Below, piece by piece: positions 138 to 47,700 of a stretch of DNA of 64,000 nt (positions are counted from its first letter, which is position 1; every line of letters begins with the position of its first letter). Origin of the DNA: Epinephelus fuscoguttatus (taxonomy: Eukaryota; Chordata; Actinopteri; Perciformes; Serranidae); assembly GCF_011397635.1 (NCBI RefSeq), contig NC_064759.1, positions 14,466,428-14,530,427 on the forward strand, given 5' to 3'. Position numbers and translations under genes: made by a program. The notes beneath the pieces were generated by a model. The model saw only the letters and a list, made by a program, of their open reading frames with translations, searched no databases and was not told the origin of the DNA.

Positions 138-3100
138 TTACATCTTAGCTTCCTTTTTGACTTTGAGGAACTCCGCCATGTTAGAGAAGTATTTCTGGTT
201 AGCTTCAGCCACCTTCTTCTCTGCAGCCTGTGGGTTGACAATCTCCAGCCCCTGCAGACAACAGCACAATGGTTAGTTAATTGAAATAAACCTGCACGGT
301 GTTCAGGGGATGTTCAATTAGAGAGAGTGTTGAGCTCTTTTTACCTGAAGAGGTGTAAATGCTACACTGGAGCTGGTTCCTGAGGAGCGGTCTCTGACTG
401 TAGACTTTCCTCCGTATGTCATGCTCTGCTTCTGCAACGTCCTCTGTTGTGTGCAGCAAAATAAATACAGAGACTTAAGGACTGAAAACAAAATAATAAA
501 TAGGTCATTGTTGAAGTGAGAATGAGCCACCAATAAGATTACCTGGAGGGATTTGGAGATTCTGGCTTTGGTGGCCTCGTTGACTTGAGCCTGCCTGACG
601 CGCCCACTGCCGCTCTTCCCCAGCTGACCCAGACTGAAGCCCAGATCCTCCTGATATGCATCATCTTCAATCTGCAAGTAAAGTCATGAAAAATTTGAGA
701 ACTGCTGATATAGCACATTACAATAAATGTCATACTATAGTATGTCATAAACGTGTCATAAAATTAACCCAAAAGTCATGGTATAGTATGTCAAGAAAGA
801 GTCATTATACTATGTCATAGAAAAGTCATAGTATAGTACGTCATAAAGTCATAGCATAGTATGTCATGAAGTCATAGTATGGTATGTCATAAAAAGGTCA
901 GTAAACTATGTCATAGAAAAGTCATAGTATAGTATGTCTGGAAAAAAAACTTCTAAAACTTTAATATTTTCACAGAATTAACTCTCATTAAATTGATTTA
1001 CCAACTTTTAATACTTTTTAAGACCCTGTCAAGAACACTCTGAAGAAGCTTAAAGTCTCACTGCTTATGCGTCCTTTACCAAAATCATGCTCATGTCAAA
1101 CAATAGAAATGGTGTGCCCTGACAAAACACACATATTAAATAATTTCACATTCCAGGTCTGCAGTGTTTAAAAGCTTCTCTTATAACATGGAAAGCCATA
1201 AGTCACTATTATTAATTGATACAATGTCTTTCAGGTGGCAAGTGCACGGTGATATGAAACTAGTTTACTTATTGAGAAGTGAGCAGCTCAGTCACTGGTG
1301 TGATGAAATGTGAGTACTACAGCAGCTTTGAGTCTGAGATTTCTGAAAATGAGAAAAGAATATATGTCCTTGTACTGATAGTAAATTAGACTGCATTGTC
1401 CCGTTTCCACTCTCCTGGTAAAAAAAAAAATCAGTCTGTTTATTTAGAGGTAAAACTGAAAACAAGAAATCTCATCTCGCTACATTACTACAGTGGGTTT
1501 GCTGTAAACAACAGATTTAGATTACAACTCTGCATCTTGCCTGAAACATTAGCACAAACTATGTCTCTTGGGTCTCGGTGCAGTATCAGTTTTACTTTTA
1601 TAAACTGATGAAATCAGAAACTACTGAAGCTGCTTTTGGCCGCCATCCTAGTCCAAGCGTTTCGGCCTTTGTGTTTATATTTAGATGCTCTGGCAGGGAA
1701 CAAAATCCAATGTGATCAGAGAACATTTCCGTATATTTAACGTGCACATTTTTTTCCACTATATTTGTACTTATTTTGCTTTTGTCTTTAAATATAGCAC
1801 ATTTAGAGCCAAATAAATATACGTCACAGTTAGATGATAGTATAATTACTGGACATATTACTGCCTGAAAGTGAACACCACTGGAATAAATGAAAGTTAA
1901 CCTTACAGGGAGCATAGTTATACAAGATATGTGAGATATAAGAGGCATGAGAGACGATATCTACTGACCTCTGCAAAAGTCATTCTGTTGGCATGTTTCC
2001 TGATCTCAGTCAGTCCAAGACGCTCCTTCATCTTTCGATACCTTTTGGAGAGAAGATAAGAACAGCGGAGTTGCTTATGCTATATATACACATATTCTGA
2101 GTTGATGGTGGTATTCTGAGCTCGGCTGTGCAAGTTATGTAAGATTCTCGCTGCCCTGTCTTGTGCTTTGTTTGCTTCCCTGTGTTCTGATACAGCAGAA
2201 TGTTTTACTTACAATAAAAGGCTGCATAAATCAATTCATTTGTACTTCAAGCATCTCCATATTGTACTCCGCTTTTCTCTAAATGTGTGGCCTGTTCTGC
2301 AGGGATAGAGCAGATCTGTACCTCCTTCCTCCTCTCTTCTTCCTCTGTCCATCCAGCGGGGCTGGCAGTGGTTTGACCTGCTTTACTGGCGGAGGCTCCT
2401 GCCATTTATCAAACTTCCTCTCTATTTCTTCTTTTAGATCGTAGCCAACCTACAAAAGTTACACAGAAGTTAAAACCAGAGGCGCCAGAAATGTAAAATA
2501 AACGTTAAAATGTTTGTGTCAGAGGTGTAATTTCAACTATGTAGCAGTGGTTGTGACTGTATGTTTGATGGTGTGTTGGACTACATTGTTTTGTAAGGTA
2601 TTTATAAAAATGTTGGTCCACCATATGTGTAAACAAGGTTGAGAAAATGTTAGAGAATTTAGCCTGTTTATTTTGTAGCACGTGTTAGTATCCACACAGC
2701 TATTCATAAATTCAGCATCAGTGTGTATGTGCTCCTCTTGGACAGTCACCTTGCCGTCTGAACTCTCGTGGAAACTGTCCACTCGGGCAGCCAGAGTGCA
2801 CTTTGCAGCCACCAGACGAGCTGCCTTCCTCCTGAGGTCCTGAATACACAAAATGGCAGACAGCTGTTAGCTACAACGTCCCCTGTGCTCAGTTAGAACA
2901 ACACTGCAGTATGTTTCTGTTTATTTACTGACAGGTGGTAGCGACTGCACCACATCACAGTGGTAGATGAAGCCGGTGTGGGGCAGCAGGGAGGTGCTGC
3001 TGAAGCCAGACAGCGTTCTTCTCTGAGCTCCCAGCAGCATCAGGTTACAGGCGGGCATTTTGGAGAGGTTAGTGAGGCCGCCAGCGATACCTGCGGGCAG

Positions 3101-5519
3101 AGGAGAAACCAGAGAGAGAAACAGAGAGTGATTATGAAAATTATTTTATTTGAGATAAATAGCACGGACAGCATAACAACACACACGTTGGAGCCAATCC
3201 CAGCTAACATTATGCGAGAGGTGGGCTACACCCTGGACAGGTTGCCAAACTGTTCACGCTCACATTCACACCTATGGGCCAATTTAGAGTCACCAATTAA
3301 CTTTAGACTGTGGGAGGAAGCCGGAGTACCCAGAGAAAACCCACGCTGACACGGGAAGAACATGCAAACTCCAAACAGAGGGGCTCCCCCACCCCAGGGT
3401 TTGAACCTCCCACCGCAGGTTTGCACCAGGAACTCTTTGGCTGTGAGGCGACAATGCTAATCACCACAATGCACCACCGTCTTACCGAACTGAAAAATGT
3501 GACTGACAATTTTGAATGGTTTTAATAATAAACAATATTTTTTCAGACATAATTTTACCTAATAGATAAAATTGTGCTCAATGTTGACTTTTATCTGAGT
3601 GTTTTCTTACTTTTAGATGATTCTAAGTTTAAATTTATGTTTGAACATCAGGGAAATTTGTCATAAGGAACATCCCTAATCTAAACGATTTAAATCTAAG
3701 ACGGATCTTTCTGTGTCGCTCACCCATGATCTTGGCAGCTGTTGAGGCTCCAACAATGATGGACAGATTTGGGGCAATGAATGACATCCTGGACTCCACA
3801 TATTCATATATCCTGTGTTTGGACTGGTTCAGCTCCAGAGCCATGTCACATGCCTCTTCCAGTTGCTTCAGTTCATCCTCACTTAGCTGTGACCTAAAAC
3901 CACAAAAACACACAAAGTCAACTTATTGATTGGCATTTAAACGGCGACGGCCACTCACAAACGTCCTGTGGATGGGAGCAATAACACTGACAGACCACAG
4001 ATGTCTGTTCACTCACCCCTGTGTGGTGGAAGCTGTGACACTGACGACCATAATAGTGGCGTTAGTGAGGATCTGCTGAAGAGTTTCATTGTTCTTGCAC
4101 TTGTCCAGGTTGTTTCCTAACTCCTGAGGAGGAAACACAAAATGATGCTCAAATCATATGAGAATACAGTTTATTGCCAAGTAGGTTTTCTCATTCTCAT
4201 ATAAGGACTGTATGTATTGGTGCATAACATTAACACCATATGGGAAATTGAAATTTAAAAAAAAAAAATAATAAAACAAGTATTGAAAAAATACTTGACA
4301 TAAATGTAGGACAGAATAAAATTATAATTAAAATATGAAAAAACAATCATATAAAAAATATATACAATATATTTATATGTGAGAAAATAACTTTTTATAA
4401 AATATTTTATTATATTAATTTTCCTAACGTATCAATGATCATTTGTGAGGGTGTAATAATTGTAAGCTTTCATATTTTTAAATAACTATTAAATATAGTC
4501 AATTTGTGTAATTTCTGTAACATGAATAATAATACATACTCTTTAATTTTGACAAAAAAATAAGACTACTTTCCTGTGACACAGGTGGCTATAATTTGGA
4601 GCCACATACTAATTTACTTTTTACTAAATCACATAAATTATTATTGATGAATATCCTCCTGCAGTCCAACTAAAGAAAGAAATAATGAACACCTTACTCT
4701 CATTTTGAAATGGATTTTCGGTAAAAATGCAAAATAAACATTTCAACTCGTCTCACCTTGACTGTGCGGATGTAATCTAGAGAATCTGGCACCAAAGATT
4801 CGAGCTCTGGGAACCTCTTGGAGTACTTGTCGCGAGTGAACTTGTGGATGATATCTGAAAACCAGGCAGAAAGGCATTAGAAAAGTTTTTTAATACAGAC
4901 CAGAACAACATCAAACGCTTTACATTTTGATTTCTTTAACTGGCAAGAGCAGCTAACTCACTGAGTTCATTGTCGATCTCCACTGTGAGGTTATTGGCTG
5001 CAACGATCAGTCTGTATTCTGGGTCGGCCTCGACTGGACCCGAGACTAAAAGGAAACACAACCAACTTAATTCAGATTCAACTGGAGCTACATGCTGTGA
5101 GGAACTTCTTAAACCACACTGTCACACACACAAAAGAAAAAAAGAACACGGATCACGCTCACCCTCTGAGTTCTTGCGCTGTTTTCCACTGTACACAGAA
5201 ATTTTGTCCATTATCTCTGAAAACTGCAGACAAAAAATAAGATTATGTGGCAACAACCACAACAGTTGCTTGTATAATACAACAACTGTATGATACAACT
5301 CACCTGTTTGCTGTTGCGGAGCTTGGCGATGGACGCCACACTCTCAGCTTTACTGTAGTCCACCTCCATCTCCTCTGGGATGTCTTCCAGCCCTGCCTCT
5401 GTCCTTCCCTGCGCCACCTCTCCATCGCTCTCCCCTTCCTCTCCCTCTGCATACAACCCGTCCTCACCCTCATCTCCGGCCTCCTCCAAATCTGCCAGGA
5501 GCTCATCCGCCAGAGACAT
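138..5519 (-). CDS. prpf31: prpf31, pre-mRNA processing factor 31 (U4/U6 snRNP)
   Basis: Thirteen coding exons, minus strand: 5304-5519, 5163-5223, 4962-5045, 4757-4854, 4017-4123, 3724-3893, 2933-3090, 2750-2839, 2322-2449, 1969-2041, 543-671, 345-443, 138-251. All join in phase with GT/AG ends, giving 1527 nt and 508 residues (human about 499). The N-terminus is MSLADELLADLEEA with an acidic stretch to about residue 60; then come the NOSIC/Nop core (EACDMALELNQSKHRIYEYV, then FIAPNLSIIVGAS at the end of exon 7) and a basic nuclear-localisation segment (KKRGGRRYRKMKER). The family protein binds the 15.5K/SNU13-U4 snRNA complex and bridges U4/U6 to U5 in the tri-snRNP. The start ATG is the first triplet of coding exon 1, directly after an AG acceptor (5520-5521), so the 5' UTR must come from an upstream exon. 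Intron 7 holds a SINE relic and intron 11 a minisatellite. Identification is very secure; exon edges are read by eye. Confidence 0.96.
726..945. repeat. minisatellite in prpf31 intron 11
   Basis: A degenerate tandem array whose core reads gtcatagtatagtatgtcat, with spacers such as aaaa or gaa. About seven or eight imperfect units of roughly 25-31 bp are visible. It lies between coding exons 11 and 12 and has no coding content. Confidence 0.75.
3190..3481 (-). mobile_element. tRNA-like SINE relic, copy 1 (5' side of + strand truncated)
   Basis: It shares long blocks with the copies at 15206 and 31755: cccagctaacat, then caccctggacaggttgcc, then gactgtgggaggaagccgga, then the head with the B-box-like part. 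Read on the minus strand, the family starts with a tRNA-like head (gtggtg..ttagca, and a ggttcaaa B-box-like stretch) and ends in an ATGA-rich tail. This copy lacks the tail and about 80 bp of body, and I see no clear target-site duplication. It sits in prpf31 intron 7. Confidence 0.75.
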
Positions 5520-7590
5520 CTGCAATCAGCGGCACAAAGTTTGAGGACATTAAAGGTAACTGGGTTGATAAGATGAAGCTACTCAGGTAAGTTTCAAAAA
5601 TGAGTGTTACTGATTGTACCACAGTGTTAATCTTTCTGATATAATATCTACAACAAGACTGTGTGGCATCTGAAATTTCTGAACATTGCACTGCACAGCA
5701 ATAAAACCCAAATGCTATCTTTCTGTTCTGGTTTTAAGTAATATAATTTTCTTTTCTTACTGTTACAGCTGAGTGAAATAAAATGTGATTGTCCTATCCA
5801 CATCACTGATCTGTATGATAACTTAAATACAGTAAAAGCAGCAAAGCAGATGCTTAAAAACATCTGGGAAATGATGAGATGGCTAGAGGGACAAAAATGT
5901 GATTAATGGATTATGAGAAGTTAAACAAGGACAAAATACATTTCAGTGAAACAAATATATTGTTTGTTTCTGACCTTTGCAATTTGTTCTTTTCCCTAAT
6001 AAAACTTCCCTAAAATCCCCCAAATTGATCAATGTAAGATGTGACTATTTCATTTTCTACAGCTCACTAGGGATGGGGAAAATGCTGATACAGTTACATG
6101 TTTTATTGAAACACTGATGCAAGACATCAATTTCATCAATGCATAAATTATTAATAATGCAAATACAAATTAAACTTTAGGTAGCCTGTTAGAATAATCG
6201 AACCAATTGCTTTTTCACTCCATTAGATACATTTTGCTGCAATAAAAAGGACTGAAGTGAGATGAACGGGCAGAAAACTTTATCTTATTACACAAAACAG
6301 ATGTTGACAGTGTTTTCCTTTGGGGATACAAGCTGAAGTTTAAAAAAAAGGACAATAAATGGCAACTTATCACAGCATATGTTATTACAATACCTAGCAT
6401 ATTGCAAAATGTTAAAAAAAAAAAAAAAATCACAATATTATAATATTGTGACTTAGCATATCTTAGGACTTCTGGTGATTCCCACCCCTTCTGCACAACT
6501 GTACAACTATGACCAGGAATACACAACTTGCATTGCCCGGGGGCCAATTCTGCAAAATGCCAGGAGGCCAAAGGCCAGCTTTAATAAACATTAATAAATA
6601 ATATATAAATAATTTGCCCGGACGTCTGTCTGGGGGTCCTCCTCTGGCATTTATATTTGGGGAAAAAAAAAAAAAAAAAGCTCTCATGCTTTTTAAATAG
6701 ACTCTGGCATCCTATTTACATTAAAAAAAAAAAAAAAAAAAATCCCAGTTAATTTCATATAAAGATAAAAAAAAAAACAACGACTGGCCAGCTCACTCAG
6801 TGTAAAAGTCTATGGCACTACCATGGCACTATTTGCCCCATCCTCGAAGAGCACCAGATTTTATTTGTTTATTTATTTTTTTTAAATAACTAACAACGTT
6901 GTGCCTTAACCCAGTGCAGCACTCTAGTTTCTTCCTCGTGAATTAATCTGAATTTAATTGTGAAATTAAAAATTGGTCTGAGGGCCAGATTTAGCCCACG
7001 GGCTGCAAACTGGCTGACTATAACCTCACAAGTGCACATGGTTTCATTTTAAGGGGTAACAAGCCAGCATATAGGAACTTACTGTTAAAAAGAACTGCTA
7101 GCTTTTCTCGGCATGATTTCAATATAATCTGGGACGCTTTACAAAAACAAAACAAGCAATTCAACACACCGAATACTGTTTGTCAGTTTAGCCATTTAGA
7201 TCGGTCACTAAATTAACTGGGGATTAGGATCAGTGGTGTTAAAATAGCTAGTTACATCTTAAGACAACATCTTCAAATTGAATTTCTTGGATCCAAAACA
7301 CGCTGAACACAAATGGGGGATGTTTTCAAAGTAGTTGAAGTTAACAACGATTTCAGGGTATTACGGTCCTGGTTAGACTCCCAAACAACGTTAATCAATG
7401 TAACACAGGATATATAACGGAGCAAATAAAATCTGAACGTGTAGCTATTTGAGAAAGATGTTTCTACACTGATCATAATTCAGTGGTTGTATCGTTAATG
7501 TAACGTTAGTGCTAGCTAGCTAGCGTTAGCAACGTTGACTTAGCGCTGTCAGTTTTGTTACTACACGCTTTAAAAGTAACACAAACTTAC
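5520..7590 (-). other. prpf31 intron 1
   Basis: No coding exon is seen. The intron holds A-runs (about 6414-6430, 6662-6679, 6723-6742) and degraded repeat-like stretches. One of these, near 6975-7015, reads agggccagatttagcccacg, typical of old hAT-derived relics. I see no intact element. Confidence 0.5.
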
Positions 7591-12200: not shown

Positions 12201-15200
12201 TGCATTGTGGTGCACACAGGGATGAAATGAGGCAGCAAAATGTGATGTTAAAATGGGGCTCAGACATTAAATAAAAGCACACATATGTTTCTGACCAGTT
12301 AACAAACTTTTGGTGACGTTGAGTCGAGGTGCTTTGTGGCAAGTAGCACCTTTAAGGGAACCTATTACACTTCTCCTTATTTCTGTCATAATATCATAGT
12401 GTTGGATGCTCATGTTAAACGTGGCTTAAGTTTAAAGTAATGAGGTACATATGTAGACATAATTACACACACAAGCCTGTGACGACGTAACTATGTTAAT
12501 GAGCGCTTGAGCAACACTTCAATGGCGACTTGGCGATAATGTAGCTGGTCATGCTGTAGCGCTATCTCTCATAGTGTGGACACTGCATTAACCTCTTGTT
12601 GACGCTAAAGGAAATGATTTAGTATCACAAAATCAGTAGGATTCATCCTCTGGCTAGCATGAATGTCTGCAAAAAATTTAACAGCCGCCTATCCAATAGT
12701 TGTTGAGATATTTCAGTCTGGATCAAAGTGGTGGATGGTTTCACCAACAGCTCCATTCCCGCAGCCATGTTGCTAACGTGACTTAATGTGTTTCCTCCTC
12801 AATCTGCTTCTCATAATAAATGTGAGATGATTAAACATTTTAAGAAACAAATTAGGACCAATTTTACTATGATGAAAACTGATGGGAAAAAAGAAAACAT
12901 GAAGAAACATCATTTACTTAGGGTTAGGGACAATTTTGCCTAAATTTTTATTATAACATAAAACATGATTTTATTTTTTTATTTATTTTTTTGTCTCATG
13001 TTGGGTAAAACTGGTAAGGGTAAAACTGAACTGGGAAAAATGTGTCGTTTACTGGCGAGTTTTCTTTGCTATTTTGTGTTTCTCACTTTGCATGTGGGAT
13101 CCCACTGCCTTGATTCCCATCGTGCTGAGTTGGAAAACCTTTTGCATAAATTACACCAAGTCTCACATGCATTGCCTTATACTGGTTTCAGCCATGTCCC
13201 TAAATCTTGGTTAAAAAGCCAAGTTTTGTTGAACTTGCACTTCCCTATGTCTTCCAGGGTACAGTCAAAGCTAGCCAGCAGACAGTGAATCACACTCTTT
13301 GAGCATTCTGGCCTGGAAACAAAAGATGAGTGTTGTTGGTTCTGCTGTCCTGTTCTGTGTGATGTTAATGTGAGAGGCATTCAGTGCATTATTTTTTAAA
13401 AAGATGCAACCAATTTTTAATGCAAGGTAAGAAAAACATGTTCATGTATTCCGTACATTCAAGAATTTCTTTTAAAACTTTTTAAAGATCCACAAAAACC
13501 CTGTTAGATGTTTAAAATGTTTAAGATCTTACCACGTAAATCCAACTTGGTGCTTTTGACTGACACTGTGGCTGGACTTGTGGGCGCTGAACTGCTCAAC
13601 TCATTGGTTGGAGTTTCCTGTCGTAATGAAACAAAACAGTCAGGCCTCTTTTTTTTTTATATTGATGACAGTCTCTTTTAAATCAGTTATTGAAAGTACG
13701 GGAAATACCTGATCAAAAAGATAGATTGTGACATCATCAAAAAAGGACACATTCCTCCCTCTGTCCTTCTCTCTGTCCATCAGCTCCTTGGGTGATTTCA
13801 GCAGACTCCTCAGCCCAACACGTTTGTCCACGTCTGTTTCTGTGACAACGATCACCCTCCGGGAGCTTTCATCCTCCTGCTCATCGTCCTCCTCATCGTC
13901 AGGGTCGCTTCCAGAGGACAGACCTCTCCGTCTTCCGATCCGATTCCCAATCGCACCATCCCCAAATCCTCCTTTACCAGTGGCGGTGAGGGGAAGACTC
14001 AGAGCAAGAGGAGGGAGGGCGAGAGACAGACGAGCTAGTTTTGCTGTAAAAATGGGAGCAAGGAAGAGACGTTACAGACGAGAGACACCTGACGAGAGTG
14101 TCTTAAATGCCTTTAAAGATAAGGATGACGACCTTCTACAGGCAGCCCAGCTGGCTTAGGGGTGATTGACAATTGGGTATTTTATTCCCTCTCTTTATTC
14201 TTCCTCTTCTGTTTAGATTCATTTTAGTTTTTAAGTTTCCTTTGTTTAATCCTTCCTGTTTTTCTTCCTTACATCTTTAATAGACTCAAAAAAAAAAAAT
14301 AGTGTAAAAAAGGGTCCTATCTCTTTCATCACCTTACACCACTGAGCTAGCTAACGTTACATCAACGAGGAGGACACCATTAATGTTTATGTGTTGTGCT
14401 GTCAGGAGTGCAATTCTCTCATCCATAAGTAGATGCACACTTCCTTCTGCACAGTGATACAGTTGGTGGGTGTAGCAGTGTTTCCTATGTGAAACTGCAG
14501 AAATCTCTAAAGTTGGTATCTTAAACACTCGGCAGGATGGGGGAACAAACATTGACACAAAAATAAATAAATTGCTGTGGTTTGTATTTCATGGTCTCGG
14601 TCATGAATATCAGCGATATACGTGTGACATGAACGTACCTTTCATTGCCTGGTTTGCAGTAGGCTGAGGGGTGGTGACCTCAGGTTGTTCAATCACAGTG
14701 AGCGGCTCAGCTTTAGTTTCATCAGACTCTGTGTCGGGCTGAATGCTGGGGGGACTTTCCTGCTCCTCTTGGCTACAACAACAAAACACAATGAACAAAA
14801 TATAATTAAACCATGAATATTAAATGGTCTGTTCACCAAAATATAGGTTTCTCCATTTGCTCCTTGTGGTATCTACTCAGATAGTTTTGTTTTTATCTGC
14901 TCAGATTTTGTAACATTCATCTCTTTTTCATTTAATATGTTGTGCTCACAGCTTTGAAAAATTACATTTAAAATAATAGGCAGTATCCTTGTTACTCTAG
15001 ACAATTAACAAATGTTACTGTCAACAGTTTTTGTTGGAACTACTTTCCACAAAAGAAATGGTTCCTCAGAAAAGGTGTTGCAATTTGTTTAGATTTTTAA
15101 AAGTAACAGGGACACTGTTTCTGAAAAGTGATGTTGATTTTTTTTTTTAGATACACATTTTAATGGTCTCAGCACTGGAAATGAAAATCTGTTCACCCTC

Positions 15201-18200
15201 ACTATTTATTCATTCATTCATCTTCTAACCGCTTCATCCTCTTGAGGGTCGCGGGGGGGCTGGAGCCTATCCCAGCTGACATCAGGCGAGAGGCAGGGTA
15301 CACCCTGGACAAGTCGCCAGACTATCGCAGGGCTGACACATAGAGACAAACAACCATTCACACTCACATTCACACCTATGGACAATTTAGAGTTATCAAT
15401 TAACCTAGTCCCCAATCTGCATGTCTTTGGACTGTGGGAGGAAGCCGGAGTGCCCGGAGAGAACCTACGCTGACACAGGGAGAACATGCAAACTCCGCAC
15501 AGAAGGGCTCCCACGCCCGGGATCAAACCGGCAATCCTCTTGCTGTGAGGCGAGAGTGCTAACCACCACACCACCATGCCTCACCCTCACTATATTGGGG
15601 GTAAATTAAATATCTCGAAAGTTGGGCAAAGAAAACTAGAAGAATTATCTGCATGGCTGTAAATTAGAGAGCCCTCCAGGTCACTACTGATGATACTCTT
15701 TTGTAAATAAAAAGAAAAAAATTCATCTGTCAGGACTTTGGGGGTTCCATACTGAAAAAGGTCAGTTCTTAAAAAACAGTCTTATATGTATATATATTAT
15801 ATATTTGAATTTAAATTTGAATATATCAAATTTAAAGTAAAGAGCAAAATAAAATATGCAAACAATATATGAATGTAGTTAATAATAAATTATGTAGATG
15901 CAAAATAATAAACAGAGAAAAACAAGACAATCTACTTGATACGTCCTCACAAAAACAAATCTGGTTACAGAGAAAAGTTTTGAGAATTTTTTCTCAATAT
16001 GTACAAGAATGTAGCTAAATATAGCAAATGCTAGTGCCACTTTATTTATATAAGACTATAAGTTTATAAATTATATCTTGAAACCAGTACAGCTACACTA
16101 TAAACAAGTATATTTGTCATCATAAATTACAATGACCCACTGGGAACTGTGACCTGCCATCACTGGGCCTCCGCTGGCTGCCCTCTGTCGTTCTGTTTGT
16201 CTGGCTGCACTAGATTTAAGATACTTGTGGGTTCTTTGAGACTGGATATTTTACGTGTTTTAAAAAATATAAAATTGGTCCAAATGACTCACAGCCTGTT
16301 CTGTTCCCCAGATATAAAACGTGTCTTTTTTTCTGTATTATATTTTGTCTATAGGAGTACATGATTGCTGTACTGTGCTTTTGTGAATTTCATTTGGTCA
16401 TTACCTTTTCTTAATATTTGAGGAGATGGAAAGGATAAGATGCTTGAAATAACAAATGCTGACTTCAACAAAGCAGCTTTATATTTTTCAGTGTTGATAA
16501 AACTTCTTTTAAGTTCTAGTAATTCTAGTTTCAAGCGTTAAGTTATTCAGAACCAGTATTAAAATCTCAGTCACAGATTTATATATATATGCCTTTCTTT
16601 GAAAATGGATATTTGTAACCATGGCTGTTCTCTTTTTCACCCATTTTGCTCAGTTTGTCCCTTTCCCTTTCCCTTTCCCTTTACCTTTCTGATAGTGGAA
16701 AGAATATTTTAAGTTGTTAGAAATGACACTTATGGTTGTATATACAAACAACAAAAACAGCTAAAACTAAAAGTGTATAAAAAAGAAAAAGTGAAATGCT
16801 CTAACATAAAAACTTTCCCAAATCTTGTCACAAAAAACAAGCATGTATTGCCTTGATTTAAGATATTTTGTCTTACTTAGATTTAATTTTTCTTTTAGTT
16901 TTGCAGTGAGTAAGACACCACCAGAGGAAAGTATAAAATATATTTTGAGTTGGAGTTTTTTTTTTAAATTTGGGTGAATCATTCTTTCAGTATAAATCCT
17001 AAGTTCAGCCTTCGTCGTACCTTTCGTCCTCTTTTTGTTCTTCCACAGTGACCAGCTCGCTGCTGTTCTCTGTGATTTGTTCCCCCCAGGGCCGCAGCAT
17101 CACCGTGTCTTTAACAGTCGACCCCCAGAGCACATTTGTTTTCACGTTCTCACTGAGCGAGAACTGCAGCCTCTCCTCACACACCTGAAGCAACAAAACA
17201 AAACAATAAAGAGCAGGGATTAAACTCGGAGAGGTAATATAAGGAGCACTTTTACAACAAACAAAACACGAGAAAACATGCTCACCTGCATCATGAGGCC
17301 ATTCTTTGTTGTCATCTTAGAGAAAGAGCCCTGGTCTTTGACATCAGATGTTTGGCTTGGTGATTTCTGCCCGTCATTCTTCTCCTCTTGAGGATCCTTG
17401 ATCACATGTGGTGCAGACTTTGCCGGTTGATCAGAGTTCTCAGGGATCCCGTCCTCCTTCAAATCCACGCTGCTCCCCTCAGGACTAGAGGAGCCACCTA
17501 TCTCCTCACCTGTATCACTATCGCCACCACTGCTGCCTTTCTGCTCAGGTGATTTCTTCAAAGATTCCAGGAGCTCCAAGTTCCCCAGAAAAAGGTCACC
17601 CAGAGAGTCCTCCTCGTCCCCAGATATGCAACACAGTTGTTCCAGTTTTTCAAAATCCTCCAGGGGCTCCTCGTCCAGATCTTTCCACTCAGAAATCAGT
17701 AACTCTGGGAGATTGTTGAGGGGAACTTGGGGTGAAGATGGGGTGGCAGGCGGTGTTTTCTGTGACAGATTATTATGTTCATCCTGTTGTTCTGTGCTGG
17801 GTGTGAGGTTGTTCTCATCGACCAGTGTTATGTGCACAGAGGGGAGGTTCAGATTGGCTGAGATCCCTTTACTCTGAGTTGTAGCAGGTGGTGATTCTTG
17901 CAGAGGTGGCTCTGAGACATCTGCGTTGTGAGTTGGGGAAATATACGGCTCCGTCTCAGTGCTAGCAATAAAGTCGTCTAGATTAATGTGACTAATAAAC
18001 TCCTCTGCCTCTATAACAGATGGCGGTGGGCTAGGAAAAGAGTCGTCTAAACTCTCCAATTTATCATCTTGCACATCAAGGTCTATGCTTGGTGGAGGAC
18101 TAGGAAAATCTACTGAGCTGAAATTGTCCACCTGTGGATCTATCTCCTGCATATCAAGGTCACTGGGACAAGAGATGGGATTGGGTGGAAGGGGCATGTC

Positions 18201-21200
18201 TCTGAAATCCTCTTCTTCATTTATAATGCTCACTCTGTCTTCTATAAATTGCCTAGAAAGCCATGGTTTCATTTCAGCCTCTGACTCTGCGCCTGATTCA
18301 ACATTTTCCAGGTCTGAAAAGTTCTCATGAGGAGCTTCAGTGATGCAAATAGATATGTTTGAACTCTCTAAAGTGTGACTGAAACAGTTCTCTAAATTTG
18401 AGCCTTTGTCAACACGCTCGGCTGATGTCTGTCCCTCTTTTTGGATCTTGCAGAGGTGATTCTGAGGCCATCTGTTAAAGTTTTGATTTTCCTCTGTCTC
18501 TGTGGAGTCTAGCAGACCTTCCCTGTCCCTTCCTGTCTCTGTGCATGACAAAATCTGCCTCTCTGCTTCCTCCAAGGACTCCTGCTCTGGGATTTCTATA
18601 TTCTCTACTTCAATATCTGAGATTTCTCTTTTCAGGTCTTCGTTGAAACTGCCAATTTCTACTAGGTTCTCAATGTTTTCCTCCTGTTGTACGTCTACTA
18701 CTTGGGGAGCTTGTTGGTCATTAGAAACTGCAGAGTCCCACTTTTCCTTCATGGCAAGATTACCGGCGAGTCCTTGTGTTTCATCATTCCAGGTTTCTTC
18801 GCAGCCCTCCAAGACCGCAGGGTGTGGTTCACTTCCTGCAAGTTCATCATTTTCTTCAGTCTCCCAAAACTCCTGACCTACAACAAGCCTTTCCCCCACC
18901 TCCCAGGCCTTATTACTGAACCCAGAGAAAAATTCAGATTTCAGTTCGTCTTGGCACCTCCTCTCTGGAGAGGCCCACTGATCATTTTCATCAGGCCACA
19001 AACGTAAGTCTCTAGACTGTGAAAAACGGTGGCAGTCAAACTCTCCCCTAATGACTCCAGATCCTGCACGTTCCTCATCCTCATCCATAGCGCTCCATAA
19101 CTCTTTAGTCTTCACGTCCAGGCCCTCACAGGAGTCTTTATCCATGATGTCAGCAGAGTCCGTCCGACTTGCTGCTCCTCTCATGGGCGACTTTTCCTTC
19201 ATGGCATTACGCAGCTCTGCAGCAGCTAGTTGTTTCTCCGTCTCTGTCGTGACCTTCTTGTCTTCGCTGCCATCTGAGCAGCGCAGGTTTCTCAGACCCA
19301 GCTCGTTGTGGTCCAGACTGGGTCTGTCTTCATGTCTCTCAGCCTCTTCAGCCTCCTCAGCCCAAGAAGGACACGTCAGACCACTAACTTTACCATATAC
19401 AGACTTCCCATCATCACTTGGCTCAACTACTGACGGGGTTTCACCGCTGAGTGTGGCGTCACTGGTTTGGACACCGTATAGTTTAGATAATCTTGACTCT
19501 CTGTTGTCAGCTTGGGAAGGTGTCACTGATTCCACAGTGTCATTTCTACATTTGAGGGAGTTCAGTGCAGAGAGATCAATATCCCTCTCTGTACCACTTG
19601 TGTAATCTTTGTTGCCTGGCCTTAACAAACAATCCTTTGAATGGCTGCCAGACATAGACTCGATCAAAATGTTTGTCTCAGCGAGGCTCTTGGAATGTCG
19701 ATTTAAATCGTTCTCTGCAGCGCCCTGGTATTTGCAATCTGTTATCTGAGAGATGATGCCATCTGTGTAGTGGTTGTCTATCGGATACCCACCGCTGTGT
19801 GGGAGCCCTTTCAGTGGCTCATCATCTAATTTTGAGAACAACTTATCTATTAAGTCAACACAGTCCTTGGCCTGCGGGTCATCACACAGCAGCGTTGACT
19901 TTATGCTCTCGTTTTGGAAAATGCCAGAATCGTCTCTCTGTGTTGACTCCAGCCCTTTGTTTAAAATGTCTTTGTCATCACCTAAATGAGAGACGGCATT
20001 TTCTGGCGCATGCTGATGCAGAGTACTCATTTCCTCAATAGTTTTACCTTTATCCGACATCTGTAAACTATTTCTTAAGGGGCTCTTTTCTCCCATTTCT
20101 CCCTCCTCCTCAGTTTTTTCCTCTATCCCTGTCAGTGTTCCCCGATCCCCTCCTCGACCACTGCTCGGCCTGGAGGCAACCAGTCCATCACTGCTCCTTC
20201 TGTTCATCCCGTCCCCCTCCCAGTCACTGTCTGAGAAATAGGCAGAGTCTCGATGTGGTGTTTCATTTCCCAGAGCTCGCCACCCACCGCTTCCCACTCC
20301 TCCTCCTCCTCCACTGCTCGTCCATGAGTCACTAGGTGTGAGACAGTCGGCTGAGTTTGAAGTCATAGGTGACAGGACCGAGTCGGTGGGGGTGATAAGT
20401 GAGACATCAGAGGATGGGTCCCAATCTGGAGTGGTTGGAGTGGCAGCAGGAGTGGGCACCTTTTCAGCAACATGACAGTGTTTTTCTTGCCCGGTGTCAT
20501 TGTGTTGAAGTGAATTTTCTCTTTTAGTCTCATCGCTATTTTGAGAACCCACATTTTCTAAATCAGCTGTCGTGATACATTCAGAGTCCACTGAAGAAAC
20601 CTTATCAGAATGGCTCTGTTCTTTGTCAGGCTCACATGATGTGGTATCGGTCTCGCCACATGTTTGATCCCGTCTCTTGGGGCTGCTGGCCTGTAGGCCT
20701 TCTTTCATTAATTCACCATTCCCTATTACAGCAGCCTTTTGAGTATCTGCTTCATTTGTGGTTAGCGTTTTGTTCTCACGCTGTAGCACAGTGTTAGAAT
20801 CTTTAACACTTTGAGTGGACTCAGAAGGAGAGTGCTCCAAGAGATCTGTTTGCTCTCCTCTGGCAGGTAAGGCAGGTCCATCTGCGCTCTCCTCCTCTTC
20901 TTTCTCACATGCAAGTGTTTGGTTGTGCAGGAGACCATTTTTGGGCATGATTTCTGAAAACACAAACTCGCCAGATTGGCAGTGGTCAGCACTGTTTCCT
21001 TCGCTGTCCAGTTTGGGAGCTTGTTTATTTGGCCCTATATGAAGGACTGGGATCTCAGGCTTCATAGAAACCTTTACCTCACCCTTTTTAGCGCGCTTGG
21101 TCACTTGGGCGTAGATGGCCTCAGTTTGTGTTTCATGGTTGCCTTTGTTGGATGCTCGTACGGAGCTCTCTGTCTGAAATCTGATGGTCTGAGCGGAGCT

Positions 21201-24200
21201 TGGGTCAATACATATGGACTCGTATTCAGGAGACAGCGGTGTAGGGGAGTAAGATGAGTCCGCTTCTTTTCTGTTTGCCGTGGCGTTTTGTCTCGATATG
21301 ATTTCAGTCAGGAAAGTCTCTGCTGATTGGATCTCCTTCAGGAACTCCTCCCTGGTCATCTCTGTTTTCCGAGGCTCCTTCTCAGTCTGCTGCTGGTCTG
21401 ACTCCTGCTTCCCCATGGTGATCTCAGAGAGGAGAGAGCGAGATCTCCGTATACCCTTTGAATATGCTTCCTCAGCCTCAGTGTAAGAGGGAAGGCCTGG
21501 AGCACAGACATAGGGCCGCAATCTGGATCCTGCAGGATAGAGGTATTTTACTGGATCACTTTCTGATCCTCCCTCTGGATTCGTTTCCATCCTTCCTGTG
21601 TCGATCTCTGTGAGGAAAAGATCCCTCTGGAATGATTCTTTAGTTACAGTAGCGTCCTCCTGAGCTCCTGCCCGTTTCTCTGGCACCCATGACTGTCCTG
21701 CTGACCCCAGCTCTGTGATCAGCGACTGGGAACGGCGCATCCCTCTGTTGGGCAGCACAAAGTTCCCCCATCTCTCTCCGTCTCTTTTCTCCTCCTTGTC
21801 TCCCTCCCATGAAGCCTCTGACTTGGACTCACTAGACTCTGTCACACTAGATATCTCTGTCAGAAACAGATGCATGGGGGATTTCTTGGCAGCGGCCACA
21901 CGTTCTGCGTGAAGTTCAGCGTCTTCCCTCCAAATGGCAGGAAGGATGGTGTCAAGGCGTGACTGGGTCCTTTTCATTCCCCTGGAGAAGAACTCAGCGC
22001 AGGCTGGGTCTGCGTCTTCAGATAGGCTGGAGTGAGCGACAGTAGTCCCACCGCTGGTTCTCTCAGGGGACATGAAGGGAGAGTCATCCTCATCTGAGTA
22101 GGTGGGACTGGATGAAGACTGTCTGTCAAGCGAGGGGTTTGTGGGCTGAGGGCGGGGTAAATTGCGATAAATTGGGCGCAATGGGTTTTCTCGACGAACA
22201 GGAGAGTCAAAGTCTTTTGCACGAGAATGAGAGGTCTCTCTTGAGTTGTGCAATGATGCTAAATGCCTGCTACCACCCTCTCTGTCAGACAGGTCACAGG
22301 ATAGTGGGTCTCTACTGGATCTCTGCATCTGTGGCTTACTGTATCTTAAATAATTGTCTGCTGTGTTATAGCTGGGGCAGCTTCTTTGTGGTTTGGTATG
22401 AGGAGGCAGGGGTGGGGGGCACATTTGAGGAGGTTGGGGGTAAATTGGATGGCTCGATGGGGGAAGGGAGGGGGAGAGGGATGGGGATGGTGGCAGAGTC
22501 TGTCGGGACCGATGGAGCCCCAGGTGATCAAAGGTAGAAGGCGGACAGCTACTCATGTGATGTGGGTCTGTTTCGATTTTTCCACTGATGGTGTAGTGAG
22601 GCAGTCCTCTATAACCAAGTGGAGGGGCAGGGAGGGGGCGCGAGTGGAGGTGGTTGGCTGATGACATGGACATAGAGCGAGGCTTCGGAGGAAGGACCGG
22701 AGCTTGAGAACTCATCGAGGACTTTTTATCTGCCTCACTGCTCCTTTTCTTCTCCTCTTCATCATCGTCTCCCAAATCGACTACTGAGAAGTCTGTCACT
22801 CTGCACGAAGTGTCTCTGAATTCAGCCACGCCTGTGTTGGGCACCTGGAGTTGAACCTCGCTTGATCTGATGGTCTGGAGGCCCTTTCCACACTTATCAG
22901 AAGAGCAATAAGGGACTCGTTCTTTTCCCAGCATGCCACTACGAATCTCCACCAGCTCCATGTCTCCAGGGCAGATCGAGTCAGAGCGGAACGAGGACTG
23001 CATCTTCCCTTTGAGAGTTGGCGACTTGTCCTGGGGGGTGTGCTCCTCTAATCTGATGTAGTACTCGCTGGCAAGGGAGGGGCTGCGGGCGCTTATCACG
23101 GGGACCACAGTGGGAGTGTCCAAAGACTGTCTGTGGTTATTGTTCACAGTCGGGATTGGCTGAGGAGGAGGAAGAGGTTTGTAGCCTCGTCTGGCGTGAG
23201 CCTTTTCCCAGAAATACTCAAAGTTCAAGCCTTTGCTGGTTTCGGTGACCGTCAAGATGTCGTCCAGTTCAGACGAGGACGGGGTGATACAGTTCCCCAC
23301 AGGGTCCAGCAGGGGGTAGGAGTTGTCTCTGTCTTCCCTGCCGTACTCTCTCTCCCTTTGTCGCTCATTTGCTGCAGTCTGGAAGGCAGGTGGACGGAGT
23401 AAGTCCCAGCGTCTTTCAAATGACTCCTCGCTCTCCCCTCTCCTTCCTCTGCCCTCCTCATATTCCTCATCCTCTTCATCTTCTTCGCCCACACTCCCCC
23501 TCACCATTCCTCGCTCAGCAGCCAGGAGGGAGGAGAGGAGGAGGAATATCTCCGCTACAGAAGGGCGTTGAGATGGAGGTAGCCAGCAGGACTGCATGAT
23601 CTCATACCTGAGGACAGGAGAGAACAACAGAGGAATTAAGTTTAGAGAGACAGAATTAGGGCATCTTCACTTCCCATTAACATAATCATCATTTCTGCAC
23701 AACTGCACTTGGTGGATAAATACTGACCAGTAGTCTGCATGGGAGAGTTTCAGTCTGGGCTGGGCCAGGGTGATCTGTCTCTCCCTAATGACGAAGGTCA
23801 GCACCTCTTCGTCGCTCAGGTGTCTGTGGGGCTGAGAGCCAAACTCAAACAGCTCCCAAATAACCACCCCCAAGGACCTGGAGGAAAGAGGAGATGTAGA
23901 GATGGTGAGAGGCAGATCTTCACAGACCTCTAAGTTTTTTTTGTTATGTAATGCTCTTACACCAACACCTTGTTTTATACAGAGCTCTGACTTAAAAGCA
24001 TACAAGATTAAGAGGCATAATGAGAAAACACTTGAGAATATATTCTGTTGGTTATGTCATTATAGATGCCTTATTATATTATCAGAGGAAAAAACTTGTT
24101 TGGAGAAGTAATAAAAATCTTTCCTAAATCTTTTGCCATTGTGTCTTCTGTGAGAGGAAATAGTACTCCTCCTCAACTTGTGTGTTTCGTTGCCAGAATA

Positions 24201-41798: not shown

Positions 41799-44700
41799 TC
41801 ATGATTTTAATATTTCCTCTCTCCAGCTCTCTCGATCCCGTCTTTGGCGCTTTCGAGCAAGTTCAGGAAAGTATGCGCTGTTGTACGGCCTCTCCCTCTC
41901 GTTCACCTCCTTCCCTGTCTCCTTCCCTTTTCCATTCCTCTGGTCGAGCAGGGCCTGGGCTCTCCTCCTTTCTTCAGCCTCCCTCTGTAAGCGCTCGGCA
42001 CGTAACTTCTCTATGGAGCTGGAAAAGAAAGGAAAGACAGATTTATTTTTATGTCTCTCCATAAAAATATTTACATCTTTATCACATTTTATTTATATCA
42101 CGACATTCACACCCCCAATATCTTAATTATCAGGAAACTGATGTGACCGCAAGAACGGTCTCCCTGGACAGAGCCAGGCTAGTTGTTTCCCCTTGTTTCC
42201 AGTCTTTATGCTAAGCTAAACTAACTGTCTGCTAACTTCAGCTATACATTGAGCATACGGACGTGAGTGTTACCAATCTTATCATCTAAAACAGCTTTCA
42301 AACTGAGGGTTCAACCAGGGTTGAGACAGCACTGATTTTATGTTGGAGAGGGTTAACCCGCTAGACCGGCTCAGTTTTGTGACACAGGTTGAGAAGTGTG
42401 TCAGGCAAGGTTCGGACCAGGGTTGATTTCAATGTGAATGGCACACCATCAGTGTCGCTAACAACCGAGAGAGGACAAATTATGTCACTGGTTGCAAATG
42501 GGGATGTACAGTCACAGGCTGCTGCGGTTCATAAAAAGTGTGATGGCAGCAGGAATGTTTTCAGCTACAGCTATGACTTAACAACATAAAGATGTGGCAA
42601 GACTTGGTGCAGGAGCTCCTGAACGTCCATGGTGAGGATAAAATTAGGCGGCAGATGACCGGGACGGTGAGGGACAATGTTGAGTGTGCCAACATAACGA
42701 GGCTGATGAATGAGAGAGGCATCCACCGTACACAGAAACAGGTCACACAAATAACTCTGAGCAAGACAGAGAATAAGTCTGTTTCCCAAAATGTTGAACT
42801 AACCCTTTAAAACTTGGGTTACCGGGCTGAAATCAATCTACCAAATTAAATGATCATATCTGATGCTTTAAAACATAATATTAGTTTGTTATTATAAGAT
42901 TATATGTAACAAGATAAACTGTTGTTACCTCTCTCCGCTGCTCCTCTTCTCTCCTCTGTCTCTTTTTTCCGTTTTCTTGCTGCTGTGGTATTTCCTCTCC
43001 TTTACAGCCAGTGCTTTCCTCATATCTTTCAGTGGGTCTAAACTATCCTTCAATCTGCGATCCTTCTTCTCTCTCTCTTCTTCACTTAATCCCTTCCTCT
43101 TGTCTTTTTCTTTCCTCTCTTCTTTTTCTCTTCTCTCTTCTTTCTCTTTGCTGGTCTTCATGTACCACGGAGTGACTTCAGACCCTGGCTGGGGTCCGAG
43201 AGACACCAGCAAGCCAATGGCTCGTTCCTGTTTCTCCTGTTTAAAAAGAACAAGGAAAACTAACAGTAATTAAAATGTGCCGTGCAGTGACAGCAGTGCC
43301 AAAAGATGCCAAATGTAGAAAAGGGCAAACTAGTAAAATGATTCACTTTTCCGTTGGCTAAACTAATGTCTGAGATTTGATTATAAAGCTGGATCACATC
43401 CGTATATTTTAACACTTTGCCCTGAAATAGCAGCTCAGTGTCTCCCATGGTTTTATTTATCTGACTCTCTGTCTGCATTAGTATTTCCCCACTCTCACGC
43501 TCCATCTGTTTACACTGCTTGTATGCATAATGTGGCTGGGCTGCGTCCAGGATATTTCTTGCTTTGTGACCACAACAAGAGACTGACTGCCTCCGCTGAT
43601 TTTAAATATCAGACTCAGTGTACCAGCATCTAGATATGACTGATTGATTAAAGATGTACAGACACAAGTTTAACTGTTGCTCAAACATCTCCATGGATAA
43701 ATGAGCCACAACAGGAACACTGTGTTTTTAAAATGTCCAAATCACATCCTCACTCCCTGTGGTACAATAATATCTATTTCAGCAACAAACCCTGACACAG
43801 GGTGTGTTTGACCAGACGGTTACCTGCTCATGTTAGTTCATAAAAGATCTTTGTGTGAAATAGTAAATATACACTAAACCAGGCCAGGCGCCAGGATGAA
43901 GTGACTGACGGGACTGTTAAAAATTGCACAGTTTTTCGTTAAATGAAATTCATTGATTTAATACTGAGATAGAGTCGTCTTACTATTATTTGTGTGAACA
44001 GATTGACAACCCATGTGTTAATGTGTGTTCTATAAATTAAAAAAAAAAAAAAACTCAAAAAACTATTCAGCAAATATAAAACAGATCTGTAAATACACAA
44101 ATATGAAGATCCATTTGTCACAAAAAAACAATTCGTGTGTAAATGTGTAATCTGTTATTATAAATAACCCTCCACAAATACAAAAGAGATTTGTAAACTC
44201 ATAAACTATTCTGCAAATATAAAACAGATCTGCAAATACAAAACAGATTCCAGAAATAAAACAAAAGACTCAGTGTGCATAAAATGCAGATTCACAAATA
44301 AAAACTGGATTTACAAATATTTGACAGTTGCAAATGTTAAGAATTTACAAATGCTTTTCATTTATTTGTAAATTAATTGGATGTATTCACAGATATTTTT
44401 CATTTGTGGAATTTGTATGTGTATTTGCAGATCTTTTTTATAACACATGGATTGTCGATCTGTTAACACAAATACTGAGACAAATCTATCTCCATAATTT
44501 AACCATGCAACAGCCTCAGAAACACTACTATAAATGACGCCATTTTTCCAAAATCAAAATCAAAGAAAACACTTATTAATCAGACTCACTGAAGAACGTA
44601 GCACTAGCAGAGCGCTACACATATATATATTTTTAATTTAGGAATGATTCGGTCAAAATCAACAGGGGGAAGGTATGAATAAACAACTGTTGTGGCTGGC

Positions 44701-47700
44701 AGCTGTCTTGCACGCTTTCTCTGCTCTATTTCAGCACTATGGACAGCGCCCTTACAGCCGTCACATTTATCTCTATCAATAATTTCATTTTTTTGGCTAT
44801 TTTTCTATAGTTACATAAAACTTAAATAGAGAGGAAAAAACATACAACTGAGGGGCTAAGCCCTTTCAAGACCCTTGTGAAACAGGGCCCACACCACACA
44901 GGCTTTTTCATGTACAATACTTATGACGTAAAAGAAAAAAACAGCAGCTTGGCAAATACTGCTATCACAAGGTCCACTGACTTATTTTTTTCTCGAGCAT
45001 TCAGTCACATCTCATATAGTTGATCAGTCAGATCAGTGGTTAAATGACACTTACATCAAGAAAATAACAACTAAACCATCTCCATGACAAGTGAGCAAAC
45101 TGTCTGTTAATGAAGGAGACAAGATGTGGCTGAAAGCTCTGGAAATCCCATGTGGATCTTGTGAGAGAATAAGGTCAAAACTGAAAATAATGTTTCAGGC
45201 TTTATTTATTTACACGTTATTAAAGCATAAATGACTACTTTTTAAGCATCTTTATGATTTAGACGTGTGAGAGTGACAAAGGAAGCAGCAGCGTCACCTT
45301 TTCATCTTTCTTTTCTTTGAGATACTCCTCGTTCCCCTTCTTCTCCGAGGAGTCCTCCAGGGGGAAAAGATTAAGATGCTCCAGAGCTCCACTTCCTTCA
45401 CCGACATCGTCATCATGCCTCCCTTCTCCTACTGAAGTGAGAGCAGCTCGAGCTTTCCTTCTCAGATATTCTGTACGAGCCTGTGGAGAGGAAGAGTTGT
45501 TATTCCAAACTAAACATAAAGGCATCTTTATCATGCATCATATCATACTTACTCCACATAAATCTCCTTCTGCTTCAGTCTCGTTATTTATTTACTATGA
45601 CTAAAGCTTCAACCATGAAGCCTTTCATCCTTGTTTGTGGTATTTTACAAAGATACTTCACAATACAGCAGCAACAGAGTAAATCTTTAAAGTAATATTA
45701 GTTAGCTCTGATTTCCTAAGGGAACACTTTATGGTCCTTTAAGGATTATTTTGTAAGTCCAGTGGTCGTCTAGTGGTCACATCCAAAATAGTAATAATAA
45801 TGCTCTAACTTTATTCAGTTGAACTGTTTATGCTGTGTGCTTCTTAAAACTCACACAGATTATCATCTTTAGAAATATAAATAAGAAACACATGGGTAAC
45901 AAATTAAAGAAAAAAATAAATATATTAAACTAAACTGTGGTGTGTTTGTGTCTTCATGTGTTTTTCTGTTCTGGTGATGGCTGTGTGGAGTACCAGCTAA
46001 CACACTGGTCCAAAATCTCCCACAGGTGTTCAACTGGATTCAGATAAAACACAATCATCTGCATTTGTTGTTTTGCCACTTGAATTTGTGGACCATCTGT
46101 GTATCTGGATGTCTTAATTTGGTAATCTTCTGTGAGGCTGTCTAATGTTGCTGTCAGGGATTTCACCTCGATGAAGGCAGAGAGGAAGAAAAAATGTAAC
46201 TTTCTGTGTGTGAGTTGTCACAGTTAAAAATACCAATCATTCAATCCACATATTAGCACGACTGCTAATCCTGAGTGTGAATTAAGAGCTGAAATAATTA
46301 GTCAAGATGCAAAACATCTGCTGTTTTCAGCTTCTTAAAGTGAGGATTTACTGCTTTTATTTGCTGTATTGAATATCTTTGTGTTTCTGACTGCAGGTCA
46401 GACAAAACAAGCAATTTGAAGATGTCACTTTGGGCTCTGAAAAATTGTTGTTAATATCTTTTAACATTTCATAGATCAAATGATGGTTTAAAGGTCCAGT
46501 GTATAGGATTTCGGGGGATATATTGGCAGATATGAAATAAATAATTGGGTTTTCTTTAGTGTATAATCACCTGAAAATAACTGTTTTTGTATTTTTGTTT
46601 CCCTAGAATTATCTACATAGGGTGCGGATCCTCCTCTATGGAGATCCCAATGTTGCACCATCATGTTTTAACAGAAGCCCAGAACAGAAACCAAACACTG
46701 GCTCTGGATATAGGGCCACTCACATTTTCCCATCGGCCACTGTAGTAAGCTGTCCCTCTCCGACGAGAGCTTCAGAAAAACACTGATTTGTAACATGCAA
46801 CTGCTTTGTTCTGTGTTTTTGCCGGTTTTAATCACTGGAGCTGTTTGTTTTGGAGAGGAAGAGACCTCTGTAAGTAATTCTGCTCATGGTAAGAACCTCC
46901 TGAACATCTGGATCTCAAATTATCAGAGAAAAAAGTTGGGTACACATTAGTAGGTGCTGGGCTAGCAGTCGGTCTCAGACACGCCAAACAGCATCTGAGA
47001 AGCACTGATTTATAACATGAAACTGCTTTATTAAGTGTTTATACTGGTTTACATCACCTGCTCTGTTTGTTCTTGAGAGGAGGCCACCGCTGTGGACAAT
47101 TTGGCTCTCAGTAAAAACCTCCTGAACATCTGGATCAGAAATGAGGTGGGCACACGTTATCAGGTGCTGGGCTAGTGGCCTGTCTAATAGTGTCCGAGAA
47201 ATATTGTTTGTAACGTGGACCTGCTTTATTCAGTGTTTGTACCGGTTTCAATTGCCTGTTCCATTTCTTTTGCTCAGGAAGAGCCCTCTGCAGATAATTC
47301 AGTTCCCAATTAAAACCTCCTGAACAATGAACAATGAAGGAATTCTAACCAGGAGAAGTTTCAGCTGGTTGCAATCCATTATCCCCACCACTAGATGCCA
47401 CTAAATCGCCCTAAATCTTACACACTGTTCCTTTAATTGATCAAGAAAATGATCTGAAATCTAGCAATAATTACAGCCCTGGTGTGAACTGCTTTGATGC
47501 TTTATCCTTAATACTTAAAGCTTATATGAAGTGATATTCTGGAACTACAAGAACCAGAAAACTTTTTTCATTTACAGGACTGATTAGGAAACTTAATTTG
47601 ACTTATCTTGTGTGCTGTGTGTGTGGTTTGTGTAGTTGGAGGTGGACTCAGACAGCCTCACAGCTCAGTGTGACACTCTGCAGGTCAGCACAATAAGAAC

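Follow-up and report, generated by a model that had tools for sequence, protein, structure and literature searches.

An array of short repeated motifs has been found in the long tail of the lemur tail kinase LMTK3 of Epinephelus fuscoguttatus, encoded on the minus strand of a 64,000-nucleotide stretch of genomic DNA (the window). The array is made of three basic units and seven copies of a small core, in which two large hydrophobic residues are followed by T, S or K, then E, then I or L (ΦΦ[STK]E[IL]). Both motif families are confirmed as real and non-random. A tentative reading, to which we give somewhat less than an even chance, is that the tail is disordered and carries them as an array of phospho-regulated short linear docking sites, kept by selection at the protein level. 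Linear motifs repeated within disordered sequence are already familiar as a general kind. Lemur tail kinases have long, disordered tails of which only part has been mapped, and a defined array supplies peptides with which recruitment can be tested.

The LMTK3 gene and its motif array

Judged by its sequence matches the gene is LMTK3, because its large exon matches 6seq_A (human LMTK3) alone and the human chain recovers ordered exons; this bears out the identification made in a first-pass annotation of the same DNA. The exon was compared with the PDB by phmmer (E up to 1) and gave 6seq_A as its sole match (E 1.8e-17). The human chain (6SEQ, 1460 aa), used as query, recovered exons in order from 33196 to 13567, plus weak noise matches. 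No LMTK1 or LMTK2 tail was among the PDB matches of the exon, hence the contrast between LMTK3 and LMTK1/2 rests on distinct sister exons of the fish. The exon is enclosed in a minus-strand frame of 2148 codons (17223-23666). Its borders are an acceptor, AG/GTATGAG, at 23608/23607 and a donor, CAG/GTGAGC, at 17286/17285, and its reading frame is continuous with those of the upstream kinase exon (...HADYW/YEIMQ) and the next exon downstream. The net charge of the exon proper is -167. Tail residues are numbered here from 23666; the numbers of the first-pass annotation are about 367 higher.

Two further features of LMTK tails lie outside the array. A VSF-type PP1 docking motif, named for LMTK3 in PMC11550312 in the part seen, is present near the C-terminus (13709-13753, minus). 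A tryptophan-acidic stretch at 17652-17702 (minus) is a candidate for the kinesin light chain motif (WE/WD) that PMC11550312 reports for LMTK tails. The one Pfam match of the exon, to HD-CE, scored below threshold (E 0.095; 12.8 bits, with the cut-off at 27); it lies at residues 36-111, outside the array, and was taken as chance.

All motifs lie in a single open frame within the exon (Table 1). Three pairs, each a basic motif followed by FLTEI at a distance of 38-47 residues, had been annotated; all six motifs were found where they had been placed, at distances of 38, 42 and 47 residues, and a later degenerate copy, annotated as EFVFSEI, was found as well. The basic motif proved longer than the 10 residues originally described (21954-21983, 21717-21746 and 21429-21458, all minus): it is a 13-residue unit, [RK]G[MI][RK]R[ST][QR]S[LR][LI]x[TE][IL], and successive units are separated by 79 and 96 residues. 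Units b and c run straight into the same core as the FLTEI motif. LITEL, LLSEI and FLKEI are thus copies of the core beyond those first listed. The picture of two separate, regularly alternating motifs therefore does not hold: strict alternation fails because units b and c end in LITEL and LLSEI, and because FLKEI precedes TFLTEI. All seven copies of ΦΦ[STK]E[IL] fall in tail residues 540-920, where they span about 300 residues, and there is none elsewhere in the frame.

Table 1. Positions of the array motifs and of the exon that encodes them
Feature	Position	Strand	Basis
Large LMTK3 exon: last part of the kinase domain, bulk of the tail	17286-23607	minus	frame, splice borders, 6seq_A match
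Basic unit a, 13 residues, FLTEI-like end degenerate	21945-21983	minus	best triplet; moment 99.4th percentile
LFLTEI copy A	21852-21869	minus	best width-6 triplet in region and exon
Basic unit b, 13 residues, end = core LITEL	21708-21746	minus	best triplet; moment 99.9th percentile
LITEL	21708-21722	minus	tail end of basic unit b
LFLTEI copy B	21603-21620	minus	best width-6 triplet in region and exon
Basic unit c, 13 residues, end = core LLSEI	21420-21458	minus	best triplet; moment 99.8th percentile
LLSEI	21420-21434	minus	tail end of basic unit c
FLKEI, additional copy	21330-21344	minus	frame translation; modelled helix
TFLTEI copy C	21300-21317	minus	best triplet; modelled helix
FVFSEI, degenerate outlying copy d	20949-20966	minus	frame translation

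Departure from chance and origin of the copies

The exon was searched without bias for the top-scoring triplet of segments that share one set width and do not overlap. Scores were composition-adjusted, with rare residues weighted up, and shuffles were made within 30-residue blocks. At width 6 the best triplet of the exon is the three FLTEI segments (19.3 against 15.6 +/- 1.0 in shuffles, maximum 18.1, 0/60); at width 13 it is the three basic units (27.7 against 15.1 +/- 1.3, maximum 18.6, 0/60), about 9 standard deviations above the composition-adjusted shuffles. The shuffled-sequence check proposed in the first-pass annotation has therefore been passed by both families. The same search turned up nothing to compare with this in the three sister exons, whose best triplets were reached by 13 and 5, 4 and 3, and 32 and 40 of 40 shuffles at widths 6 and 13, respectively.

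With plain BLOSUM62 scores on the 380-residue region, no shuffle was as good at widths 6, 10 and 13 (0/200 local, 0/200 global), and at width 8 the figures were 0/200 local and 1/200 global. On the whole tail plain BLOSUM62 is weak because Pro/Glu-rich stretches dominate: the top triplet at width 6 is a proline triplet, width 8 was matched by 21/25 shuffles and width 13 by 2/25. The composition-adjusted scores were applied after plain BLOSUM62 had lacked significance at width 8 over the entire tail. The core pattern, drawn up post hoc after the sequence had been viewed, occurs seven times in the tail against 0.24 expected, a number reached in 0/1000 and 0/500 shuffles.

It could be argued that repeats are to be expected in a long low-complexity tail, and that these were picked out by the reader. 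Out of 3000 controls of each type, some 5-mer occurred three times in 27 (global), 122 (local) and 83 (Markov), so that FLTEI x3 by itself reaches only p ~0.01-0.04; this and the whole-tail BLOSUM62 result at width 8 speak for such an explanation. It is nevertheless very improbable, given that no composition-adjusted shuffle equalled either family, that the basic unit stands so far out, and that both families fall within the same 250 residues.

Between pairs of the three FLTEI copies the synonymous codon differences number 3, 4 and 3 and the non-synonymous ones 0, and identical motif residues are mostly encoded by different codons. The DNA of the array has no direct repeats of at least 15 bases. 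When the motifs were cut out, pairwise similarity fell to the level of shuffles (fractions 0.18-0.89). The copies are thus either old or of separate origin, because their codons differ, DNA repeats are lacking and the intervening sequence is dissimilar. Read from the sequence, the codon differences exclude recent copying, and together with the motif-free similarity and the DNA repeat search they led us to rule out any recent or clear segment duplication; the duplicated two-part module once suggested for this tail finds no trace beyond the motifs. The codon pattern alone is no proof of selection, since chance identity gives the same look; the argument rests on the triplet test. The motifs look like old, selected binding sites.

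An ancient tandem duplication of one segment of 80-100 residues, since decayed, with the motifs kept by chance or weak constraint, would account for the similar spacings and for the succession a-A, b-B, c-C. Units 2 and 3 also align without gaps over 44 residues, and the score of 54 points that way, being above all 300 global shuffles (maximum 51); however, at least one of 300 local shuffles exceeded it (maximum 63). The motif-free similarity at shuffle level and the absence of DNA repeats argue against such an origin, as does the register, which is broken by the extra core copies. We regard it as unlikely, but as the most credible of the alternatives considered here.

Human LMTK3 and the sister kinases

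Human LMTK3 and the fish protein have in common, in the same order, a transmembrane segment, pieces of the kinase domain, the LTVTE...GLN block, one further block and the last blocks, VSFxxDVTx among them. They differ in the motifs: [RK]R[ST]xS and FLTEI are missing from the human protein, which has a single ΦΦ[STK]E[IL] (VVKEL at 162, ahead of the tail). Conservation in mammals had been put forward as a check on the motifs, and in human LMTK3 (6SEQ chain) they are absent. The two proteins also differ in length between the YYIRLEEH and RLSLALPP blocks, with 680 residues in human LMTK3 and about 2000 in the fish (~3x), the latter comprising 1918 residues in the large exon plus two small exons. 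The array falls inside this lengthened stretch. The LMTK3 tail is thus very unlike between this fish and human, which is relevant to fish models of LMTK3.

A single LMTK3 was found in this genome. Three sister tail exons, named by resemblance as two LMTK1-like and one LMTK2-like, were found at C20:36.67 Mb, C19:18.89 Mb and C19:26.31 Mb. They share with LMTK3 a single large tail exon and the LTVTE, YYI and DSAYFSD blocks, but their frames are shorter (1193, 1146 and 1091 aa, against 2148 aa for the LMTK3 tail frame, ~2x) and they contain no [RK]G[MILV][RK]R[ST]xS, no FLTEI, and 0, 1 and 1 copies of ΦΦ[STK]E[IL]. The sole [RK]R[ST]xS of the sisters is RRSVS of the LMTK2-like frame, at the PP1 site. 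Of the LMTK tail exons that this genome yielded, that of LMTK3 alone carries the array. A search of the fish's own genome with the array region (E up to 10) scored 5 candidates and returned itself alone, and in scans of viral and prokaryote contigs for relatives, 4 and 70 stretches with the pattern were seen, respectively, and 0 were confirmed. A PDB sequence search (E up to 10) pointed to no partner, as it gave no match for the region, the basic units or the FLKEI/TFLTEI stretch.

The array had been called unfamiliar from descriptions of LMTKs, and the open-licence literature on LMTKs agrees as far as its accessible text goes: the portions seen of PMC11550312, PMC10774328, PMC8478525, PMC8662651, PMC6690932, PMC5358335 and PMC5589800 do not describe it. 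In a full-text search of the open-licence literature for FLTEI, no title retrieved concerns a protein motif.

Helicity, phosphorylation and candidate partners

The basic units have the two marks of a basic amphipathic helix: computed helical moments from the 99.4th to the 99.9th percentile (Table 1) and a net positive charge (+2 to +4). In the 2148-residue frame, units a, b and c are the only proline-free 13-mers with a moment of at least 0.55 and a charge of at least +2; at these values the three sister frames contain none, and neither does the human stretch of residues 538-1097. At a threshold of 0.6, three separate amphipathic sites were seen in 0/300 shuffled regions. Shuffles of the whole tail gave a mean of 1.3 sites and, as the best of 60, 3 sites, equal to the number observed; what stands out is their clustering together. 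The FLTEI segments, formerly taken as the helical part, rank with the most hydrophobic hexamers in the exon, yet their moments are unremarkable (25th-79th percentile); the extreme moments belong to the basic motif.

AlphaFold2 was run without an alignment, a mode in which it tends toward helices, on the region and on the third unit alone. The 381-residue region gave a mean pLDDT of 39.9, with copy B non-helical. The third unit alone gave a mean pLDDT of 76.7 and two long helices, one spanning tail residues 728-759 and the other 772-803. Unit c lies in a modelled helix (mean pLDDT 93 and 79 in 10-residue blocks), and FLKEI and TFLTEI are in a modelled helix at pLDDT ~95. The pTM of this model is 0.30, so a fixed packing of the two helices is unsupported.

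The serines of all three units have a hydrophobic residue at -5, a basic residue at -4 and Arg at -3. Four such sites occur in the tail against 0.41 expected, the fourth being LKREIS at residue 1678. The pattern of Φ at -5 and Arg at -3, which we take to be CaMK-group-like, agrees with the annotation of the basic motif as suited to a basophilic kinase. LMTK3 itself is also a candidate. As given in the parts seen of PMC11550312, the LMTK family is reported to autophosphorylate, the in-vitro consensus of LMTK3 is (from -4) L/K-R-R/X-X-S/T, in agreement with the accessible part of PMC8478525, and hydrophobic residues from -3 to +1 lower phosphorylation. All three units show the mark of an LMTK3 substrate site, a Ser/Thr preceded by Arg at -3, at -2 or at both. 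Unit a fits the consensus fully; units b and c depart from it, with Arg as their -4 residue and Leu as their +1 residue. Over the tail the strict consensus shows no enrichment (3 against 2.65 expected). Relaxed to allow Arg at -4, it has 3 sites in the region against 0.80 expected, a modest excess (24/500 shuffles as high), and no clear enrichment in the whole tail, with 7 against 3.95 (56/500); human LMTK3 has 0 sites.

From these features a mechanism may be proposed. i) The seven copies of the core would be docking sites, and the FLTEI copies would bind a partner with avidity. ii) In two units the core is fused behind the basic stretch [RK]G[MI][RK]R[ST][QR]S, and in the third it is degenerate; the fusion would yield a basic amphipathic helix with a phosphorylatable Ser/Thr in its middle. 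iii) The basic helices, if formed in the cell, would when unphosphorylated bind an acidic or hydrophobic surface, be it a membrane, a partner or the acidic tail itself. iv) A basophilic kinase, of the CaMK group by the -5/-3 pattern or LMTK3 itself, would phosphorylate the unit serines, which would free the helices and create phospho-sites. A bolder extension is a multivalent phospho-switch in the tail, which the fish lineage would have gained or mammals would have lost: three helices interleaved with seven cores would serve one partner, and LMTK3 or a calcium-regulated kinase would thereby set the endosomal position of the enzyme. We consider this extended form doubtful; if true, the switch would be a regulatory layer missing from the human enzyme.

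Two narrower schemes compete with an array of phospho-regulated docking sites. One would make the basic units a tandem 14-3-3 site, in which a dimer bridges two of the three phosphoserines and FLTEI is a separate docking motif. The mode-I site is RSxpSxP. Units b and c read R-S-x-S-L, sharing the R-S-x-S core, and they match the ELM CanoR pattern; the gaps between units would presumably leave room for a dimer. Binding of the units to 14-3-3 is thus possible by sequence. But no unit has Pro at +2, and unit a, with Thr and with Arg at +1, is unmatched. The 14-3-3 consensus ascribed to the basic motif is at background in this tail: the ELM pattern has 20 matches against a mean of 16.4 in shuffles, 208/1000 of which reached 20, and the sister frames have 14, 12 and 11. 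The term 14-3-3 is absent from the accessible text of the LMTK reviews PMC11550312, PMC10774328 and PMC8478525; in what was seen of PMC6690932, PMC5358335 and PMC5589800 the 14-3-3 and LMTK terms are unrelated, and no report pairing 14-3-3 with LMTK3, LMTK2 or AATYK was found in the open-licence literature so far as accessible. With the pattern at background, 14-3-3 was dropped as the leading reading, and the tandem site is thought improbable.

The other scheme is an analogy: the units might insert in acidic endosomal membrane and be released by phosphorylation or by Ca/calmodulin, a switch for which MARCKS is the model. The extreme moments and positive charge of the units, set in a tail of -167, would suit it, and LMTKs are membrane-anchored endosomal kinases (PMC11550312, part seen). 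On the other side, the units are short, their charge is small, and their hydrophobic spacing fits none of the calmodulin patterns compared by eye exactly; we rate this switch slightly below the tandem 14-3-3 site.

Other known motifs were compared with the core. The B56-PP2A motif is LxxIxE, and the core resembles it in an L-x-E-I start; the acidic sixth residue is missing in 7/7 copies (S, S, T, M, S, S, P), and this motif was ruled out. The LC3, NES, dileucine, AKAP-type and calmodulin patterns, compared by eye, gave no clean fit.

The window holds several features besides the array. PRPF31 lies at 321-5525 (minus), with Prp31_C and Nop domains recognized in two pieces by Pfam; the start MSLADELLADLEEAGDEGEDG, near 5214-5525, is presumably that of PRPF31. 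Frames at 41802-45537 (minus) resemble LENG1, and Pfam found no family in three pieces of them. An LMTK3 intron contains a stretch (15221-15580) that resembles a fish short interspersed element, and a remnant at 50458-50733 (plus) matches the DDE_3 endonuclease (E 5e-07) and looks like a Tc1/mariner-like transposase.
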